A stretch of DNA of 64,000 nt, taken from contig CM001633.1 of NCBI GenBank assembly GCA_000309945.1, forward strand, positions 3,250,199 through 3,314,198, in the 5' to 3' direction. The DNA is from Leptolyngbyaceae cyanobacterium JSC-12 (GTDB lineage: Bacteria; Cyanobacteriota; Cyanobacteriia; Leptolyngbyales; Leptolyngbyaceae). Positions 22,890-30,030 of the stretch are shown here, piece by piece (within the stretch, counting starts at the first letter, position 1; every line of letters begins with the position of its first letter). The notes beneath the pieces are model-generated. The model was given only the letters and a program-made list of their open reading frames with translations, was not told the origin of the DNA and did no database searches. The position numbers and the translations under genes are program-made.

Positions 22890-23804
22890 ATGGTTAAAAA
22901 AGTAAAAGCACCATCGCCTATTCCTTATGTTGCTACTGCGATTGCTCTGCTGTCAGGTGGCTACTGGTGGTTCAACCCAGGAAAAATGCCATCACAATTA
23001 CTCAAAAAATTGGCACAGGAGTCGATTGGTTTGGAGAACTCTCGCCGACCTGCGATCGCGTTTCCCATGCCGCAATCAGTTCCAGCCAATACTGTAGTCG
23101 ATATTGACGGCTCAACCAGCATGGTGACAATTAACCAGAGCTTGAAACGAGCATTTGAGCAAAAGTTCCCTGGGACAGAAGTTCTTGTCGCGGCAAATGG
23201 TTCAAATCGAGGGATTCAAACCTTGCAAACTGGAATGATTGATATTGCAGCAATCTCGCGTCCCTTGACAGCGCAAGAACAGGCGCAGGGGTTACAGGCT
23301 GTTGAAATCACCAATGATGCGATCGCGATCGTTGTAGGCAACACGAATCCCTTCAAAGGCAGCTTAACATCGCAACAGGTGCAGGGAATTTTTCAGGGGA
23401 CGATCGTCAACTGGTCACAAGTAGGCGGTCCTAACAAAATGATCCGTGTAATCAACCGACCACCTGCAAGCGGCACCCATCAAGCTTTCAAAGATCAAGT
23501 ATTGAAGGGTGGCAATTTTGGCAGCACACTCAACATCACTACTCTGCCACGAGATGCTACAACTCCATTGTTGCGATCGCTGGGGACGGATGGCATTGGC
23601 TATGCAACGGATGCTCAGGTCGTGAATCAAACAACAGTTCGAGTCGTTGCCATTGATGGCTTGCGACCAGATCAGCCAGCCTATCCCTATCGCCGCACCT
23701 TGTTCTATGCCTATCAAGCTCCAGCCAGCAGCGTTGTCCAAGCTTTTTTAGGGTTTGCTCTTTCCGCTCAAGGTAAACAGGCAATGTTGAGGGACGTGCC
23801 ATGA
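22890..23804 (+). CDS. Membrane-anchored PstS-like substrate-binding protein
   Basis: A 304-residue protein with an N-terminal membrane anchor (about 12-28, no lipobox). It is followed by a phosphate-type periplasmic binding domain: DIDGSTSMVTINQSLKRAF, then GSNRGIQTLQTGMIDIAAIS, GTIVNWSQVGG and RPPASGTHQAF. The layout is that of PBP_like_2/PstS. No ABC permease or ATPase genes are nearby, so it more likely senses or presents an anion such as phosphate than feeds a transporter. The next gene overlaps its end by four bases (ATGA), which means translational coupling. Confidence 0.87.
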   Translation: MVKKVKAPSPIPYVATAIALLSGGYWWFNPGKMPSQLLKKLAQESIGLENSRRPAIAFPMPQSVPANTVVDIDGSTSMVTINQSLKRAFEQKFPGTEVLVAANGSNRGIQTLQTGMIDIAAISRPLTAQEQAQGLQAVEITNDAIAIVVGNTNPFKGSLTSQQVQGIFQGTIVNWSQVGGPNKMIRVINRPPASGTHQAFKDQVLKGGNFGSTLNITTLPRDATTPLLRSLGTDGIGYATDAQVVNQTTVRVVAIDGLRPDQPAYPYRRTLFYAYQAPASSVVQAFLGFALSAQGKQAMLRDVP

Positions 23805-24418
23805 ACAATCGATTAACCCCAGAACAGCTACGCAAAATTGTGGCAGAAGTTGGTGAACTGAATCTCCAACGCCAAAAAGAGTTGGAGCCAGACCAGGTGA
23901 GAGAGATTTTGATGGAGTTGGATCTGCCGCCAGAATTGCTGGAAGATGCGATGGTTCAGCTACAACGGCGAGAAGCATTAGCGGTTCAGGAACGGCGACA
24001 ACGGTGGATTGTGGGGGGGGCGCTCACAGCGTTGATGATTGCGATTACTGGGATGGGATTTTGGATGTATCAAGGGCAGCAAGCACTGAATCGAGTTACC
24101 TCTCAACAAGCCCGCATTACCCTGGTTCAGGATGACAGCAACAGTTTAAGCAGCGTGAACCGCCCTGCTGAAGTCGTGTATCGCGTGACGCTACGAGATG
24201 CTCCCATAGGCAAAACGCTGACTCTGCGTTGTGATTGGGTAAATCCATCTGGGCAAGTCGTCAAGCAGGTGCAATACGAAACTCGCACGATTACGACACC
24301 CATTTGGGATACTCGCTGTCGTTACCAGTTAGGATCTGGAGCGGCAACTGGCACCTGGCAGGTAATGATGTCGATGGGCAATCGTCCGCTGAGCAACACA
24401 AGGTTTGAAGTGAGGTAG
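23801..24418 (+). CDS. Membrane protein with N-terminal helical region and C-terminal beta domain
   Basis: A 205-residue protein. Residues 1-65 are helical and charged (LTPEQLRKIVAEVGELNLQR), one membrane helix follows (about 68-90, WIVGGALTALMIAITGMGFW), and the outer part (about 105-205) is a beta domain with LTLRCDWVNPSGQVVKQ and a paired-looking DTRCRY. It may be a DUF3859-like domain, recalled only vaguely. It is coupled to the PstS-like gene by a four-base overlap and lies three bases before the asparagine-synthetase-like gene. The function is unknown. Confidence 0.75.
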   Translation: MNNRLTPEQLRKIVAEVGELNLQRQKELEPDQVREILMELDLPPELLEDAMVQLQRREALAVQERRQRWIVGGALTALMIAITGMGFWMYQGQQALNRVTSQQARITLVQDDSNSLSSVNRPAEVVYRVTLRDAPIGKTLTLRCDWVNPSGQVVKQVQYETRTITTPIWDTRCRYQLGSGAATGTWQVMMSMGNRPLSNTRFEVR

Positions 24419-24421
24419 CCG

Positions 24422-26167
24422 ATGCCATCACAGCCCTCCCCCCCAGCAGCTATGATTCTCAAGTCAGCTCAGTTTCTGGGCTATTGGGGTTCGGGGCACT
24501 TGCCAGAATTGGAAACCCAGTTGGATATCCTATCGGCGGCGATGGATACGTTTGGGGTGGTGAAACGGAGATCGTCCCCAATTGGAGGTGATTTGCCCCA
24601 GGCGGTGTGGGGAGTGGCGACAACGGAAGCTGGGGGCACTGATGCCTGGATTAAGCTGGAACCTAAGCATCTGACCTTAAGACGGGATGCTTTTGGGCGA
24701 TCGCCGTTGTATTGGATGCAAATTGACCAGGTGATCTGGTTTGCTTCCCGGTTGCAATGGTTGCTGCCATTGAGCGATCGTGCTGTCTATGTGCCAGCCG
24801 TATATGGCTATGCCTGTTTTTCCTACGTACCTACCCCCCTAACTCCGATCACAGGTATCTTTAGCCTTGCGGCTAGCACTGCGCAAACCTGGAACCAATT
24901 ACCAGATGGCACCCTTTCTCAACCGATTCAGACTTGCTGGCAGGAGTGGCAAGAATCGCCGGAACAACTGAACGACGAAGCGATGGCGATCGCTCAACTG
25001 CAAACCCATCTGAAAAACGCTGTTCACCAACAAATTGCTGACCTGACGGATCAACCTGTGGGGGTATTTCTATCTGGCGGATTGGATTCTTCTGTAGTAG
25101 CAGCGTTGTTAGTTCAAGCTGGTTTAAAGGTTCAAGCTTATACGCTGAACTTTGGTGAACCAAACCTGTCTGAACACTGGTATGCCGAACAGGTTGCTCA
25201 ATTTCTAAACATCCCATTGCACATCGTTAATGTCACGCCCAAACAAGTTCGGTCTGCTTTAGTTCCCACAGCTCAAGCCCTGGATTTACCCTTTGGCGAT
25301 GGGGTAACTGTGCCCCTGTTTTTGCTGGCGCAGGCTGCCAGTCAGGAAGTTCGCGTAGTGTTCAATGGGGAAGGGGGGGATCAACTGTTTGCTGGATGGA
25401 CGAATAAACCACTGATTGCCGCAGGCGTATATCAAACTGAGCAGCCCCAGACAGAATCTTTTACGCAGCAGTATCTCCGCACCTTTCATCGTCTTTGGGG
25501 CTACGAAGCGCAGGTGTTTCAGTCAGAGATATACGCTCAGGTGCAAACGCTTGATCCGCAACAATGGCTAGAGATGGCACTTGCTTCTCAAGGCTGTCCT
25601 TCTTTGCTGCATCGGTTGCGTCGTGCCACGTTGATGCTCAAAGGTGCCCAAAATATCCATCCTCGCGCGATGAATATTGGTAGTGCTCACAGGCTTGATG
25701 TGCGATCGCCTTTTTGTGATCTGACTTTGGCCCAGTGGGCGTTTCAGATTTCGAGTCGTTTGCACCTGCAAGGTGCCTGTGAAAAGTACATCTTGAAGCG
25801 GGCAGTAGCCGATTGGTTGCCGCCAGAAATTGTGTGGCGTACCAAGCGCGGCATGGGGGTTCCATTAACCAATTGGTGCTTCAATGACCTCTGGCATGAT
25901 CTGGGGCAATGGCTAAATCCAGCTCGCTTACGACGAGAAGGTCTCTGGCATCCTAATATTGCGGCTCAACTCGTTTCTGGGCAACTTGGCACCATTCAGG
26001 GGCGACGCATTGGGGAATGCCTATGGCTACTGCTAATGTGGCAAGTTTGGCGCGAAGTTTATCAAGATTGCTCTAGGTCAGTTTATTCCTTCGACCATCC
26101 CTTCTGGCTTCCATCCTGGCTTGGACGTTCCTACCTGCGTTTACGAAAAGGTGTTCACCAATGGTAG
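24422..26167 (+). CDS. Asparagine synthetase-like protein lacking the glutaminase cysteine
   Basis: A 581-residue protein. The C-terminal half is an ATP-pyrophosphatase-type asparagine synthetase domain with the PP-loop SGGLDSS (218-224), FNGEGGDQLFAGW and a later DVRSPFCDLTLAQWAFQI. The N-terminal half resembles the class II amidotransferase fold (RDAFGRSPLYW at about 89-98), but the chain starts MPSQPSPPAAMILKSAQFLG. There is no Cys at position 2, so glutamine hydrolysis is not expected. Related Cys-less enzymes activate carboxylates (for example lasso-peptide or beta-lactam synthetases). It may adenylate an unknown acid. It overlaps the next gene by seven bases, which argues for a joint function with the decarboxylase-fold protein. 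Confidence 0.85.
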   Translation: MPSQPSPPAAMILKSAQFLGYWGSGHLPELETQLDILSAAMDTFGVVKRRSSPIGGDLPQAVWGVATTEAGGTDAWIKLEPKHLTLRRDAFGRSPLYWMQIDQVIWFASRLQWLLPLSDRAVYVPAVYGYACFSYVPTPLTPITGIFSLAASTAQTWNQLPDGTLSQPIQTCWQEWQESPEQLNDEAMAIAQLQTHLKNAVHQQIADLTDQPVGVFLSGGLDSSVVAALLVQAGLKVQAYTLNFGEPNLSEHWYAEQVAQFLNIPLHIVNVTPKQVRSALVPTAQALDLPFGDGVTVPLFLLAQAASQEVRVVFNGEGGDQLFAGWTNKPLIAAGVYQTEQPQTESFTQQYLRTFHRLWGYEAQVFQSEIYAQVQTLDPQQWLEMALASQGCPSLLHRLRRATLMLKGAQNIHPRAMNIGSAHRLDVRSPFCDLTLAQWAFQISSRLHLQGACEKYILKRAVADWLPPEIVWRTKRGMGVPLTNWCFNDLWHDLGQWLNPARLRREGLWHPNIAAQLVSGQLGTIQGRRIGECLWLLLMWQVWREVYQDCSRSVYSFDHPFWLPSWLGRSYLRLRKGVHQW

Positions 26168-27450
26168 ATATGCTTAGTTCAATTTCCAGTTCCCCTTATA
26201 CATCGCTCCTTCTCAGTCCTGAAGTTGTAACAGAACTCCTTCAGCTTTATGGTTCTCCTCTATATGTATACAATGGCGATCGCTTACGCCAAACCATTGA
26301 TCACATTACCCAGGCATTTCCCTATCACAATACCCACTTTCACTTTGCTACAGTCACTAATGGCAACCTCTCCCTGTTGCAGATCTTTGGTGATCGTGGT
26401 TGGGGCATCCATGCCAACACCCCTGGCGATATTTATCTAGCATTGCATGCTGGCTTTCAGCCTAGCCAAATTGTTTACAGTGGCAGCAACCTTAACCGTG
26501 ACGAAATGCATCAAGTCCTGGATTGGGGCGTAGCAACCTTGAATCTGGATAGTCTGGCGCAACTGCAATTGCTCTGTTCCCTATCGTTCCCATCTTCCCC
26601 AGGCTCCCTTCCTCGCATTGGTCTCCGCCTTAACCATCCCTTGCTGACAGGTGACAGCCGCATTGGAGTTCGTCCACAGGAGTTTGCAAGGGCGATCGCT
26701 ATAGCACACCAGGCAGGATTCCAGATTAGCGGCTTGCACTTTTATCGAGGGACGGGCACGAACGCAACAAAAGCGTTTACGCAAGTGATTGACGAGGTAA
26801 TCACGATCGCTCAACAACTTCCTGATTGGCGCTACCTCGACTTTGGCGGTGGGTTTGGCTATCCCTATCACCATGATGGGTTGTCCTTTAACTGGCAGGA
26901 GTTTGGAGCCGCAATCAGCCAGCGCATCAGTCAATTGCGGCAACCGATTGAGCTAATTATTGAACCCGGACGAGCCGCGATCGCGGGTTGTGCCGCCTTA
27001 CTCTGCCAGGTGATTTCTGTGAAATGGCAGGACGATAAACAAATCGTCGGCACCGATACGACCGTCGCCAATCTCTCCGTTCCAGCCGTGCATGGAGGCT
27101 ATCGGGAAATCGTCGTTGTCAGAAGGCAGAAGGATTTAAGAGTGTCGATGGAAGATCCTGGATTGGAGAACTCAGAATCCCTCCTTTTCCCCACTGATAT
27201 CTGTGGCAACACCACCTATTCCCGCGATTATCTCGGGCGCAATTGCCAACTTCCAGTAATGCAACCGGGAGATGTGCTGGCAGTGCTAGATGTAGGGGCT
27301 TATGGTTATGCGATGTCATCCCATTTTTTGCATCGTCCCCGTCCAGCGGAGGTGCTGTTGGAGGGAGATTCTCATCGATTAATTCGGCGGCGAGAAGATT
27401 ACAGTGTGTTGTTGGCAAACCAGGTTTTTACAGGAGGCGAGGGTGCATGA
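26161..27450 (+). CDS. Alanine racemase/diaminopimelate decarboxylase-fold protein without the PLP lysine
   Basis: A 429-residue protein with the fold-III decarboxylase layout: TIM-barrel GGGFGYPYHHDG (229-240), EPGR (268-271), and C-terminal GAYGYAMSSHF (379-389). In LysA-type enzymes the PLP lysine sits in AxKAN. Here the strand reads FATVTNGNLSLL, with V65 in place of Lys. The active-site CESxD motif is also changed to GNTTYSRD (349-356). It therefore cannot form the usual internal aldimine, so a decarboxylase label would be misleading. Residues 318-345 contain an insertion related to a dispersed repeat also found in pyrB. Its start overlaps the asparagine-synthetase-like gene, and its stop overlaps the next start (ATGA). 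Confidence 0.85.
   Translation: MVDMLSSISSSPYTSLLLSPEVVTELLQLYGSPLYVYNGDRLRQTIDHITQAFPYHNTHFHFATVTNGNLSLLQIFGDRGWGIHANTPGDIYLALHAGFQPSQIVYSGSNLNRDEMHQVLDWGVATLNLDSLAQLQLLCSLSFPSSPGSLPRIGLRLNHPLLTGDSRIGVRPQEFARAIAIAHQAGFQISGLHFYRGTGTNATKAFTQVIDEVITIAQQLPDWRYLDFGGGFGYPYHHDGLSFNWQEFGAAISQRISQLRQPIELIIEPGRAAIAGCAALLCQVISVKWQDDKQIVGTDTTVANLSVPAVHGGYREIVVVRRQKDLRVSMEDPGLENSESLLFPTDICGNTTYSRDYLGRNCQLPVMQPGDVLAVLDVGAYGYAMSSHFLHRPRPAEVLLEGDSHRLIRRREDYSVLLANQVFTGGEGA
27127..27168 (+). repeat. Copy of a dispersed coding repeat (shared with pyrB)
   Basis: These 42 bases match 30859-30900 at 35 of 42 positions without gaps and in the same reading frame (peptides QKDLRVSMEDPGLEN and [15 protein letters not shown]). 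The two host proteins are otherwise unrelated, so this is a mobile or copied sequence element and not shared ancestry of the genes. Confidence 0.8.
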
Positions 27451-28706
27451 GATGTATTCACTGTGGAACGGACAATAATCGACAAGACCGCTTGCGGCAT
27501 CAGGGACGCTGCAAATCCTGCCAACATCCTTTTGTGTTCGACCCTCCTGTGTTCGACCCTCAAAGCATGGGACAACCTCGGCTCACGGATCGATATTTTC
27601 AGAGCTTAATCAACAAACTCTCATTCAATAACACATTATATTTTACCCAACGGCAATTGATGTACTGCTTTCAGCATCGATACTATGGTCGTCCGCAGGC
27701 ATACTTTCGTCCACGCTTACAGTTGCAACTACCGCCCAGAGGGCTATTAGGAAATTTGGGTGTTGGTCTGGTGCTTGGTAGCTTTTTGCTAATGATTCTG
27801 GCTAGCAAGGGCGTGATTCCGCCATTGTTTGGGCTAAGTGGGTTTCTGATTTTTCCAGGTATCGTATTGATTAGTCGAGATCTGAGCCAGCGCAGACGAA
27901 TACGTGACGATCGCCAGCGAGTAGTAGACCGGGAATGGGAAGCCCAGCGCCAGCGACAAAAAGCTCCTGCTGCTAGGTTGCAGGTTGCAGAAAGTCAGAT
28001 CGAGGGGTGGTTAAAACGTTGGCAGGCAGTAAATGGCGCAATTGAGAAATTACTGCCGCCGCCCAAAAGAATTGAGGAACCAGTCGCAGTTCAGCCAGAT
28101 GTAGCGCAGTACAGTTTTGATCGATTAGTGATTTGCGATCGCGACAGCATTGCCCAACTCTTGATTGCCAACAACTTTCACTTTGAGCGGAATTGTGCCA
28201 TTGTCAGCATCACAGGCTACCCACCTCGAATTTTTGACACGGTGATGGCAATGGTACGGCGCAATCCAGAACTGAAGGTGTATGTCTTGCATGATTGCAC
28301 TGCTGCTGGAATTGCCTGTGTGGAACAAGTTAGAACAGAGCCGCAGTGGTTTCAAAACAATCCAATCCCAATTGTGGATGTGGGCTTGCTGCCAACCCAA
28401 GTTTCACAAAGCCAGATGTATTTTTATACATCATTTGCTGCTAGACAGTATGCTGCTCCGTATTTAGATAGGATTCGTTCTCGCCTGACTGAAGAGGAAC
28501 TTGATGATATTGCATCGGGGCGATATCTGGAGTTGGAGGCATTTACACCACGACAGGTAATTCAGATTTTGAACTCAGCTATTCAAGCAAATGAAAGAAG
28601 AGATGTCAACTTAACAAAATCTAACTTACCCAATTTAGTCACCCTGGAGGAGCAAGATTGCTTCTACATTTATGAAAGTTCTGCAGAGATTGCAAGTTTT
28701 GGTTAA
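27447..28706 (+). CDS. Zinc-ribbon membrane protein with TOPRIM-like C-terminal domain (paralogue 1)
   Basis: A 419-residue protein whose ATG overlaps the previous stop (ATGA), with AGGAGG-like sequence upstream. Four cysteines, C3-x2-C6 and C22-x2-C25, form a zinc ribbon. A conserved block follows (RLTDRYFQSLINKLSFNNTLYF), then two membrane helices (about 100-140), a charged linker, and a C-terminal domain (about 215-330). In that domain DRLVICDRDSIAQLLIANNF, then IVSITGYPPRIFD and VYVLHDCTAAG follow the order of a TOPRIM fold as in topoisomerase VI A, with HDC in place of the usual D-x-D. The family is unknown to me; the paralogue follows directly. Confidence 0.75.
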   Translation: MRCIHCGTDNNRQDRLRHQGRCKSCQHPFVFDPPVFDPQSMGQPRLTDRYFQSLINKLSFNNTLYFTQRQLMYCFQHRYYGRPQAYFRPRLQLQLPPRGLLGNLGVGLVLGSFLLMILASKGVIPPLFGLSGFLIFPGIVLISRDLSQRRRIRDDRQRVVDREWEAQRQRQKAPAARLQVAESQIEGWLKRWQAVNGAIEKLLPPPKRIEEPVAVQPDVAQYSFDRLVICDRDSIAQLLIANNFHFERNCAIVSITGYPPRIFDTVMAMVRRNPELKVYVLHDCTAAGIACVEQVRTEPQWFQNNPIPIVDVGLLPTQVSQSQMYFYTSFAARQYAAPYLDRIRSRLTEEELDDIASGRYLELEAFTPRQVIQILNSAIQANERRDVNLTKSNLPNLVTLEEQDCFYIYESSAEIASFG

Positions 28707-28722: not shown

Positions 28723-30030
28723 ATGAAATGTATTCAATGTCAGACTGATAACACCTTAAAGGATCGGACAAATAATTATGGTCGCTGTAAGCAATGTCAG
28801 CATCCATTTGTGTTTGAGCCAACCAGCATGGGTACTCTGAAAGTGACGGATATGATGTTCGCGAAAGCGATCGCTGATTTGTCTGCCAATAACACGCTGT
28901 ATTTCACACCCAAGCAACTCCTTTACCTGTTAGATAAGCGCCTGCAAGCAAAATCCGCTTCCAGTCCAATCAAATCGCTGGGTAATTGTATAGCGTTAAG
29001 CATTTTCACCTTTTTTATTTTTGTGTCACCTGGTTTGGCTAAAGGTAATCTCTCTTTATTGTTCATTCCAGTAGCGATTAACCTCATTTTTCTGTGTGTT
29101 CTGTGGTTCCAAAGTGTAGATAAATCAGCTTCAGTTAAGGCACGTCGGGTTGCCGCACAATGTTTGCGATTTCAGGGAGCTTTTGTTTTCATTTTTGGAA
29201 TTATATTAAGTCTGAATACTCAGCTTTTTTCATTGTTTGCCTTCGCTGTTCTCTTTGGTATTTTGTCTTTTTATTTGGGTACATGGCAGCACAAAGTACA
29301 GAAAAACACTACTCAAACCTTGCTGCTAGAAGTAGGCAAGTTTCAAGAATGGTTAGCTGCGTGGCAACGAATTAACCCAATCGCTAAGCTGCTGCCCATA
29401 CCCAATGAAACGTCACTGCCTATGACCATGAACCCCGATGTGACAGCATATAGCTTTGATCGGTTAGTGGTGACTGATAGTGCTGCGATCGCTCAATTCC
29501 TGATTGCCAATAACTTTCACTTTGAGAACAACTGCGCCATTCTCAGCATTACTGGCTACCCACAGGGAATTTTTGACACTACGATGGCAATGCTTCAGCG
29601 CAATCCAGACCTGAAGGTATATGCCTTTCACGATTGCAGTGCTACAGGAGTTAATTTAGTCCATCAGCTACGAACCAGTCCCCAATGGTTTCAAAATAGC
29701 AGCGTTGAGATTTTTGATGTGGGCTTACTACCGCGCCAGGTTATCGCAATGCCAACGTTGCTTGTACAACGATCATCAAAGTTTGCTGATATGGCTAAAC
29801 AACTAGCAGTTCCAGTGCGGCAACAATTCACAGCAGATGAACTGGCATGGCTCGACGATGGCAATGCTGTCTTGCTAGAGTCACTTCCCCCCCAGAGATT
29901 GATTCAGGCATTGCATCGAGGAATTGCTGCCAGCCATAGAATCCTGGAGGAAAACAGCCTTAGCGATAGTGACTTGATTTTTGTAGAAGACAATAGTGGT
30001 TCCTACTATTTTGTTGAAAGTTTTGGGTGA
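28723..30030 (+). CDS. Zinc-ribbon membrane protein with TOPRIM-like C-terminal domain (paralogue 2)
   Basis: A 435-residue protein, a tandem paralogue of the preceding gene and 16 bases behind it. It has the same zinc ribbon (C3, C6, C22, C25), the same block (SANNTLYFTPKQLLYLL), and a membrane region with about four helices instead of two. The C-terminal domain is the best conserved part: SFDRLVVTDSAAIAQFLIAN, then ILSITGYPQGIFDTTMAML and VYAFHDCSATG. Both copies keep NNFHF-x-x-NCAI-x-SITGYP and HDC(S/T)A-x-G, so these residues are likely important. The putative TOPRIM acidic residues are only partly kept (E to D, D-x-D to DC-S/T). It ends the seven-gene run. The function is unknown. Confidence 0.75.
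   Translation: MKCIQCQTDNTLKDRTNNYGRCKQCQHPFVFEPTSMGTLKVTDMMFAKAIADLSANNTLYFTPKQLLYLLDKRLQAKSASSPIKSLGNCIALSIFTFFIFVSPGLAKGNLSLLFIPVAINLIFLCVLWFQSVDKSASVKARRVAAQCLRFQGAFVFIFGIILSLNTQLFSLFAFAVLFGILSFYLGTWQHKVQKNTTQTLLLEVGKFQEWLAAWQRINPIAKLLPIPNETSLPMTMNPDVTAYSFDRLVVTDSAAIAQFLIANNFHFENNCAILSITGYPQGIFDTTMAMLQRNPDLKVYAFHDCSATGVNLVHQLRTSPQWFQNSSVEIFDVGLLPRQVIAMPTLLVQRSSKFADMAKQLAVPVRQQFTADELAWLDDGNAVLLESLPPQRLIQALHRGIAASHRILEENSLSDSDLIFVEDNSGSYYFVESFG

Follow-up and report, generated by a model that had tools for sequence, protein, structure and literature searches.

A lysine-less protein with a predicted LysA fold and a strictly conserved pocket belongs to a co-inherited gene set of cyanobacteria

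We analyzed a stretch of 64,000 nucleotides (nt) from the genome of Leptolyngbyaceae cyanobacterium JSC-12 (the window; contig CM001633.1, positions 3,250,199 to 3,314,198 of the forward strand) and within it a gene, here called C (26161-27450, plus strand), that codes for a protein of 429 amino acids (aa) with the fold of the diaminopimelate (DAP) decarboxylase LysA. The protein lacks the lysine that forms the Schiff base with pyridoxal 5'-phosphate (PLP), and the pocket around the lost residue has been replaced by a different one that is fixed over many cyanobacterial genera. Moreover, C is a member of a co-inherited gene set, A to E, a finding that goes beyond the scope of an earlier sequence-only reading of this DNA.

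Lysine loss and the rebuilt pocket

The site of the lysine was inspected in a pocket alignment of 49 rows, comprising 35 C proteins, 13 cyanobacterial LysA-type proteins, and 1 other lysine-bearing paralogue. Three C loci were omitted from the 35 rows, namely, L043 of genome G007 (no usual in-frame start codon), L089 of G330 (N-terminal half missing), and L033 (same contig as G002). The segment F62-A-T-V65-T-N-G-N69 of C aligned with YA[ST]K in all the LysA-type rows, and in the lysine column all 35 C rows had Val, against Lys in all 13 LysA-type rows. The codon of Val65, gtc, lies at 26353-26355 (plus strand), a position computed from the residue number. Val was also present in L043, in the additional genomes of Stenomitos frigidus and Gloeothece verrucosa, and in 43 of 43 carrier genomes read, of 48 in all, the rest being G330, in which the N-terminal half is gone, and the unread G365, G273, G298, and G264. 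Since the same residue recurs in the 35 aligned rows and the 43 carrier genomes, it is not there by chance; the loss of the lysine is secure, and it is a trait of the C family and not decay. The sequence-only reading had recognized FATVTNGN, with Val for the Schiff-base lysine, in place of the AxKAN strand, and this stood when the column was inspected.

The active-site Cys-Glu-Ser motif of LysA was absent as well. The segment C348-G-N-T-T352-Y353-S-R-D356 aligned with LysA A-G-K-H-C-E-S-G-D, with Cys changed to Thr352, Glu changed to Tyr353, and the Ser and last Asp retained. Residues 350 to 356 (NTTYSRD; 27208-27228, plus strand) correspond in this alignment to KHCESGD, and Thr352-Tyr353-Ser354 was found in 35 of 35 C rows, so that the replacement of CESxD by GNTTYSRD, also claimed earlier, was confirmed. 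Further swaps fixed in all the C rows relative to all the LysA-type rows were Asp to His84, His to Tyr195, and Asp to Asn304, the first two being additions to the sequence-only reading. At position 307, the Arg of LysA was replaced by Val in 30 C rows and by Ala in 5. In ornithine decarboxylase and LysA, the residues involved include a His that stacks on the ring, an Asp near the lysine, and the catalytic Cys, while the Arg at 307 and the Glu at 353 of LysA face the far end of DAP.

Several elements of the old site were retained: G229-G231, G233, E268-P-G-R271, D356, Y381, M385, and S387 were invariant in all C and LysA-type rows, and the motifs GGGFG, EPGR, and GAYGYAMSS, listed earlier as kept, were all found, with Ser386 replaced by Ala in 5 of the 35 rows. 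The polar residues His84, Asn86, Tyr195, Thr200, Asn201, Asn304, and Tyr353 did not vary in any of the 35 C rows, and the pocket motifs VTNGN, YRGTGTN, and CGNTTYSRDYL were almost fully invariant. It is because of this near-invariance that a ligand is expected in C. A replacement lysine was sought in the 35-row alignment of the C family, and none was found; the sole invariant lysine, K288, is shared by 90% or more of the 49 rows and was rejected as a substitute Schiff-base residue because the LysA rows carry it as well.

Ordinary PLP decarboxylation is not expected from such a site, because by the known mechanism it would need the missing Lys and the replaced stacking His and Cys. Three alternatives to the role that we propose below were ranked, with a lysine-free PLP site first, a regulatory pseudoenzyme second, and new chemistry third. 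According to the first, which we consider unlikely, C would remain a PLP enzyme, holding PLP noncovalently through the phosphate cup, Glu268, and Tyr381 and working on external aldimines only. ColD, a lysine-less PLP dehydratase of another PLP fold, works in this way, and C keeps the phosphate loop (G229-231/G233), EPGR, and Tyr381 without exception. Also in favor is the solved structure of the K69A mutant of trypanosome ornithine decarboxylase with difluoromethylornithine (2tod; PMC2217671), which indicates that the fold stands without the lysine. However, the replacement of the stacking His, the Asp near the lysine, the catalytic Cys, and Asp 304 exceeds what a loss of the lysine alone would need, and Val provides no general base.

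The third alternative, to which we give the least weight of the three, is that C performs PLP-free chemistry on a phosphorylated substrate in the old cup, using His84, Tyr195, and Tyr353. The full invariance of the polar residues named above would fit such an enzyme, but 2 of the 35 rows have Gly in place of Arg355, which belongs to the motif of Tyr353, no search suggested a substrate, and we know of no precedent for PLP-free chemistry in this fold.

Both LysA domains were recognized in C by Pfam above the gathering scores (PF02784, 82.3 bits versus a cut-off of 23.4; PF00278, 54.7 bits versus 23). The score with the NCBIfam lysA model (TIGR01048) was 250.4 bits, under its cut-off of 297.9, and that with the XrtA-associated decarboxylase model TIGR03099 was 120.6 bits, under its cut-off of 478.45. 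In a sequence search, the closest solved relatives were DAP decarboxylases, with Aquifex 2p3e first. The AlphaFold model of C (predicted local distance difference test score [pLDDT], 85.4; predicted template modeling score [pTM], 0.86) matched LysA 2yxx with a Z score of 39.4 and a root mean square deviation of 2.2 over 369 residues of both domains, and Foldseek matched it to 2p3e with an E value of 2.8e-32. Thus, C is predicted to have the complete two-domain LysA fold with the phosphate loop and EPGR. The expectation that it would be annotated as a DAP decarboxylase held only in part: Pfam recognizes the fold, but the score is under the lysA cut-off, and the orthologue in Gloeothece is labeled only "decarboxylase." The loops at about 141-150 and 322-342 carry long low-complexity insertions in some relatives (the L047 protein has 546 aa) and none in others.

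The reading frame of C is intact from its ATG. It overlaps the 3' end of the AsnB-like open reading frame (ORF) of gene B by 7 nt, and its stop codon overlaps the ATG at 27447 of the downstream ORF, a copy of gene D, as ATGA, in agreement with the earlier statement that the gene is intact and coupled on both sides. The ORF listing starts that D copy earlier, at a TTG at 27243; we adopted 27447 because the homologue in G002 starts correspondingly. Between C and its G002 orthologue, the nonsynonymous (dN) and synonymous (dS) divergences were 0.074 and 0.75, respectively, versus 0.086 and 0.92 for pyrB, a few genes downstream; in the same comparison, dN was higher for A (0.15), B (0.143), and the two D copies (0.176 and 0.282). 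C is therefore under purifying selection. That it is a decayed lysA copy or a sequencing artifact has next to no probability in our view: the canonical catalytic residues are indeed absent, but the identical replacements recur in 35 of 35 rows across many cyanobacterial genera, dS is about 10 times dN, and the neighboring genes overlap. Conservation and dN/dS rule this reading out.

A separate LysA exists beside C. Proteins scoring above the lysA cut-off were found in all four genomes tested, i.e., elsewhere in the JSC-12 genome and in G005, G029, and G032; these last are the remaining three of 16 other carrier genomes, of which 13 have a listed second match about 30% identical to C. A lysA match was also found in 13 of 14 control genomes. 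The JSC-12 genome contains a third decarboxylase-fold match (G000:C1:445308-446201; 98.9 bits to lysA, in a 688-aa frame), possibly an arginine decarboxylase. With Val fixed, no replacement lysine, and a separate lysA-scoring protein, the earlier inference that C forms no usual PLP internal aldimine and does not decarboxylate DAP is well supported, and C probably does something else.

Order, co-occurrence, and mobility of the gene set

C is flanked by A (23801-24418), B (24422-26167; 581 aa), and two tandem copies of D (27447-28706, whose start overlaps the stop of C, and 28723-30030, which codes for 435 aa), all on the plus strand, while E lies at 1.09 Mb in the same genome, about 2.2 Mb away from the A-B-C-D operon. 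Among the 35 loci with C, A immediately preceded B in 32, B adjoined C in 33, and C adjoined D in 31; in 18, E followed D on the opposite strand at a distance of no more than 1.9 kb. The exceptions were G030 and G380, with A-B elsewhere, G026 and G029, with D elsewhere, and two loci at contig ends; in G004, no A was found beside B. D is triplicated in tandem in G031 (L039:10291-14340). No further constant neighbor was found near A-D or an unlinked E, as no more than 5 of the 54 loci under comparison shared any one neighbor family of at least 60 aa.

The co-occurrence of B, C, D, and E was scored in 388 cyanobacterial genomes of 160 genera, with E-value cut-offs of our own choice (1e-60 for C and D, 1e-110 for B and E). 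C was found in 48 genomes and 29 genera. B and D were each found in 47 genomes, all of them with C, and some of these matches were partial; B was missing from just G001 (84% complete), and D from just G027, where C sits near a contig end. E was found in 51 genomes, 47 of them with C, and was missing among the carriers of C from just G330; the two co-occurred even when megabases apart. The hypergeometric probabilities of these co-occurrences, which ignore shared ancestry, ranged from 1e-54 to 5e-60. In G330 (L089:7103-8959), an apparent fusion of B and C lacks the end of the former and the N-terminal half of the latter, and the locus looks like a broken remnant. C is thus part of a co-inherited set.

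The distribution of the set is patchy, and genera g3, g4, g7, g15, and g17 of the family of JSC-12 itself (f1) each mix genomes with and without it. In Gloeothece verrucosa PCC 7822, plasmid Cy782202 carries all five genes side by side, their identities being assigned from order and sequences; there, the annotation of C is "decarboxylase" (WP_013335014.1), B and E are labeled as types of asparagine synthetase, and A and D are hypothetical. In this locus (L099; NC_014534.1, 319329-326147), E is convergent to A-B-C-D, a gene with a PEP-CTERM domain stands immediately before A, and a gene of the protelomerase family is nearby; the plasmid was typed as conjugative, and its record describes it as linear.

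An origin of C in phages was considered and rejected, as it had no PHROG match, and two peptide patterns found no relative in viral contigs. A defense system was rejected likewise, since A, C, and D had no PADLOC match and those of B and E, to QueC, were weak.

Partner proteins and a proposed role in amide formation

B and E are AsnB-family proteins that conserve the synthetase motifs SGGxDS (the ATP-binding motif) and GExGD (GEGGD in E) and a late Lys. Of the hallmarks of a glutamine-hydrolyzing asparagine synthase, they thus have the ATP-binding motif but not the catalytic Cys: no N-terminal Cys was conserved in 34 rows of B and 20 of E, among which one E row is a fragment of 81 aa and some B starts are uncertain. 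In profile searches, the best-scoring solved relatives of both were the hydroxyamidotransferase 7ylz and asparagine synthetases; CarA and beta-lactam synthetase ranked lower, but CarA exceeded some asparagine synthetases for E. TIGR03108 was among the best families for both, with B at 183.8 bits versus a cut-off of 816.9. The lasso cyclase model NF033535 gave 64.3 bits for B and 181.4 and 174.7 bits for E, under the cut-off of 525; as to a neighboring lasso precursor peptide and leader protease, a search of ORFs of at least 60 aa showed no constant neighbor beyond A-E.

A, a small protein with one hydrophobic segment by eye, matched no family above cut-off in Pfam/NCBIfam-type profile searches and is probably a membrane protein. 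D combines a zinc ribbon with two invariant CxxC pairs, several predicted long helices, which are probably membrane helices, and a C-terminal domain that resembles the topoisomerase VI A Toprim domain (22.9 and 19.7 bits with Pfam, both under its cut-off of 24.1; Foldseek versus 1d3y, E value of 3.9e-4), the metal ligands of which appear by eye to be altered.

We propose that C has been re-tooled to bind a substrate or ligand and acts as a partner in a pathway that forms amides independently of ammonia, and we regard this as about evenly balanced between right and wrong. C would descend from a fold-type-III PLP decarboxylase that abandoned Schiff-base chemistry, its active site having been rebuilt as a strictly conserved pocket in which the phosphate cup was kept and the reactive residues were replaced. 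A ligand would be held by the old cup, and C would bind a substrate bearing an amino acid or a phosphate and present it to B, E, or both. These would activate a carboxylate with ATP and couple it to the amine of the substrate, giving an amide or lactam at the membrane; since B and E have no Cys for drawing ammonia from glutamine, the amine should come from the substrate. Ligand binding, physical partnership, amide formation, the membrane location, and the product are steps that we infer.

A number of observations weigh against this proposal. Adjacency and co-inheritance of A-E would be compatible with proteins that make no contact. E occurs without C in four genomes (G057, G254, G255, and G317, the matches in G057 and G255 being partial), and in G285 an internal TGA splits the B match into two ORFs, whereas C is complete there. 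With Arg 307 and Glu 353, the DAP-facing residues, both lost, the ligand need not be an amino acid, and the kept phosphate cup and E268 could equally mean that PLP is still bound. Finally, the two annotated loci of lysine-less rhizobial relatives of C (see below) have radical S-adenosylmethionine (SAM) genes, and their listed features include nothing AsnB-like; the loss of the lysine as such is therefore not linked to amide synthesis.

The remaining alternative is a noncatalytic role, in which C would be a regulatory or scaffold pseudoenzyme that stabilizes or tunes B, E, or D or pairs with LysA; we judge it improbable, and slightly more so than the lysine-free PLP site. The catalytic residues are gone while the whole fold and the partners are constant, and antizyme inhibitor is detectable among the relatives of C in the Protein Data Bank. 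Against it, the near-invariant pocket motifs argue for a ligand, and LysA needs no C in general, as is evident from the frequencies of lysA in the controls and of C in the 388 genomes.

Beyond the proposed role of C, we tentatively consider, as a broader possibility that is more doubtful than that role, that A-E form an undescribed five-component, horizontally mobile biosynthetic or signaling module of cyanobacteria, the parts of which each swapped their signature chemistry: a lysine-less PLP enzyme, two Cys-less asparagine synthetases, and a Toprim-like membrane protein whose metal ligands appear altered. It may build a new amide or lactam product, with the LysA fold serving as a lysine-free PLP site or as a substrate carrier. 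As a PLP decarboxylase fold that has lost its defining lysine and fixed a new pocket over many genera, C offers a natural test of the fold without Schiff-base chemistry. The gene-wise labels "decarboxylase," "asparagine synthetase," and "hypothetical" hide a tightly co-inherited set, and B and E as amide-making partners of C would point to an undescribed pathway. The set is small, complete in single loci, and once found on a plasmid, and it is therefore movable and testable.

Comparison with known systems

No description of the C family or of the gene set was found in the open-access papers searched, most subscription papers being outside this scope. An idea about calcium-carbonate-forming cyanobacteria was dropped, as a search of the same papers gave nothing relevant.

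C shares with LysA (TIGR01048; 2p3e and 2yxx) both domains, the fold, the GGGxG phosphate loop, EPGR, and GAY..M.S, and it is 28 to 29% identical to 2p3e. Unlike LysA, it has no Schiff-base Lys, no active-site Cys, no His of HIGS, and neither the Glu nor the Arg of the DAP side, and it scores under the curated cut-off in a genome that has its own LysA.

The XrtA/PEP-CTERM system (TIGR03099 and TIGR03108) pairs an AsnB-like amidotransferase with a LysA-like decarboxylase. It resembles the present set in that B and E match TIGR03108 and that a PEP-CTERM-domain gene precedes A on the Gloeothece plasmid; unlike in that system, C and B are far under the cut-offs, the lysine is lost, and no neighbor of at least 60 aa is constant besides A-E. 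The synthetase domain of B and E, with SGGxDS and GExGD, also occurs in AsnB (1ct9), CarA (1q15), beta-lactam synthetase (1jgt), and the hydroxyamidotransferase (7ylz). CarA and beta-lactam synthetase have no N-terminal Cys, and in this B and E are like them, yet both score best with 7ylz and asparagine synthetases.

Antizyme inhibitor is a relative of ornithine decarboxylase that has no decarboxylase activity and is regulatory. It is of the same fold class as C (4zgz and 3btn) but distant (E value of 8.3e-9) and eukaryotic, while the pocket of C itself is strictly conserved. A lysine-less relative of other PLP enzymes, Rv3778c, has been reported (PMC12910592).

A lost lysine and a TYSRD-type motif, as in C, are also combined in proteins of rhizobial plasmids, which show Met at the position of the Lys and G[NR][ST]T[YF]SRD where LysA has its CES motif. 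They are carried by Mesorhizobium huakuii, Sinorhizobium meliloti GR4, and S. medicae (WP_280515984.1 for Mesorhizobium and WP_015241380.1 for Sinorhizobium), and the M. loti copy is 100% identical to that of M. huakuii. Those at L100:5965-7155 and L101:6941-8044 are annotated as alanine racemase or DAP decarboxylase, yet they lack the PLP lysine. Unlike in the set A-E, the neighbors in the two annotated loci are two radical-SAM genes, which in S. meliloti code for one protein with a SPASM domain and one with a B12-binding domain; a PqqD-like protein is nearby (20.8 bits, under the Pfam cut-off of 23.4), and the cluster could make a modified peptide. In a tree of all alignment columns, the rhizobial proteins joined the C family (support, 99/97), whereas without the motif columns they joined lysine-bearing proteins of Tritonibacter and Paracoccus (98/93), on long branches. 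Either one old loss of the lysine or two losses with a convergent motif are possible on these trees. Lysine-less proteins with the decarboxylase fold are a known kind, of which we regard C as a variant; the five-gene set, for its part, may be a pathway of a new kind.

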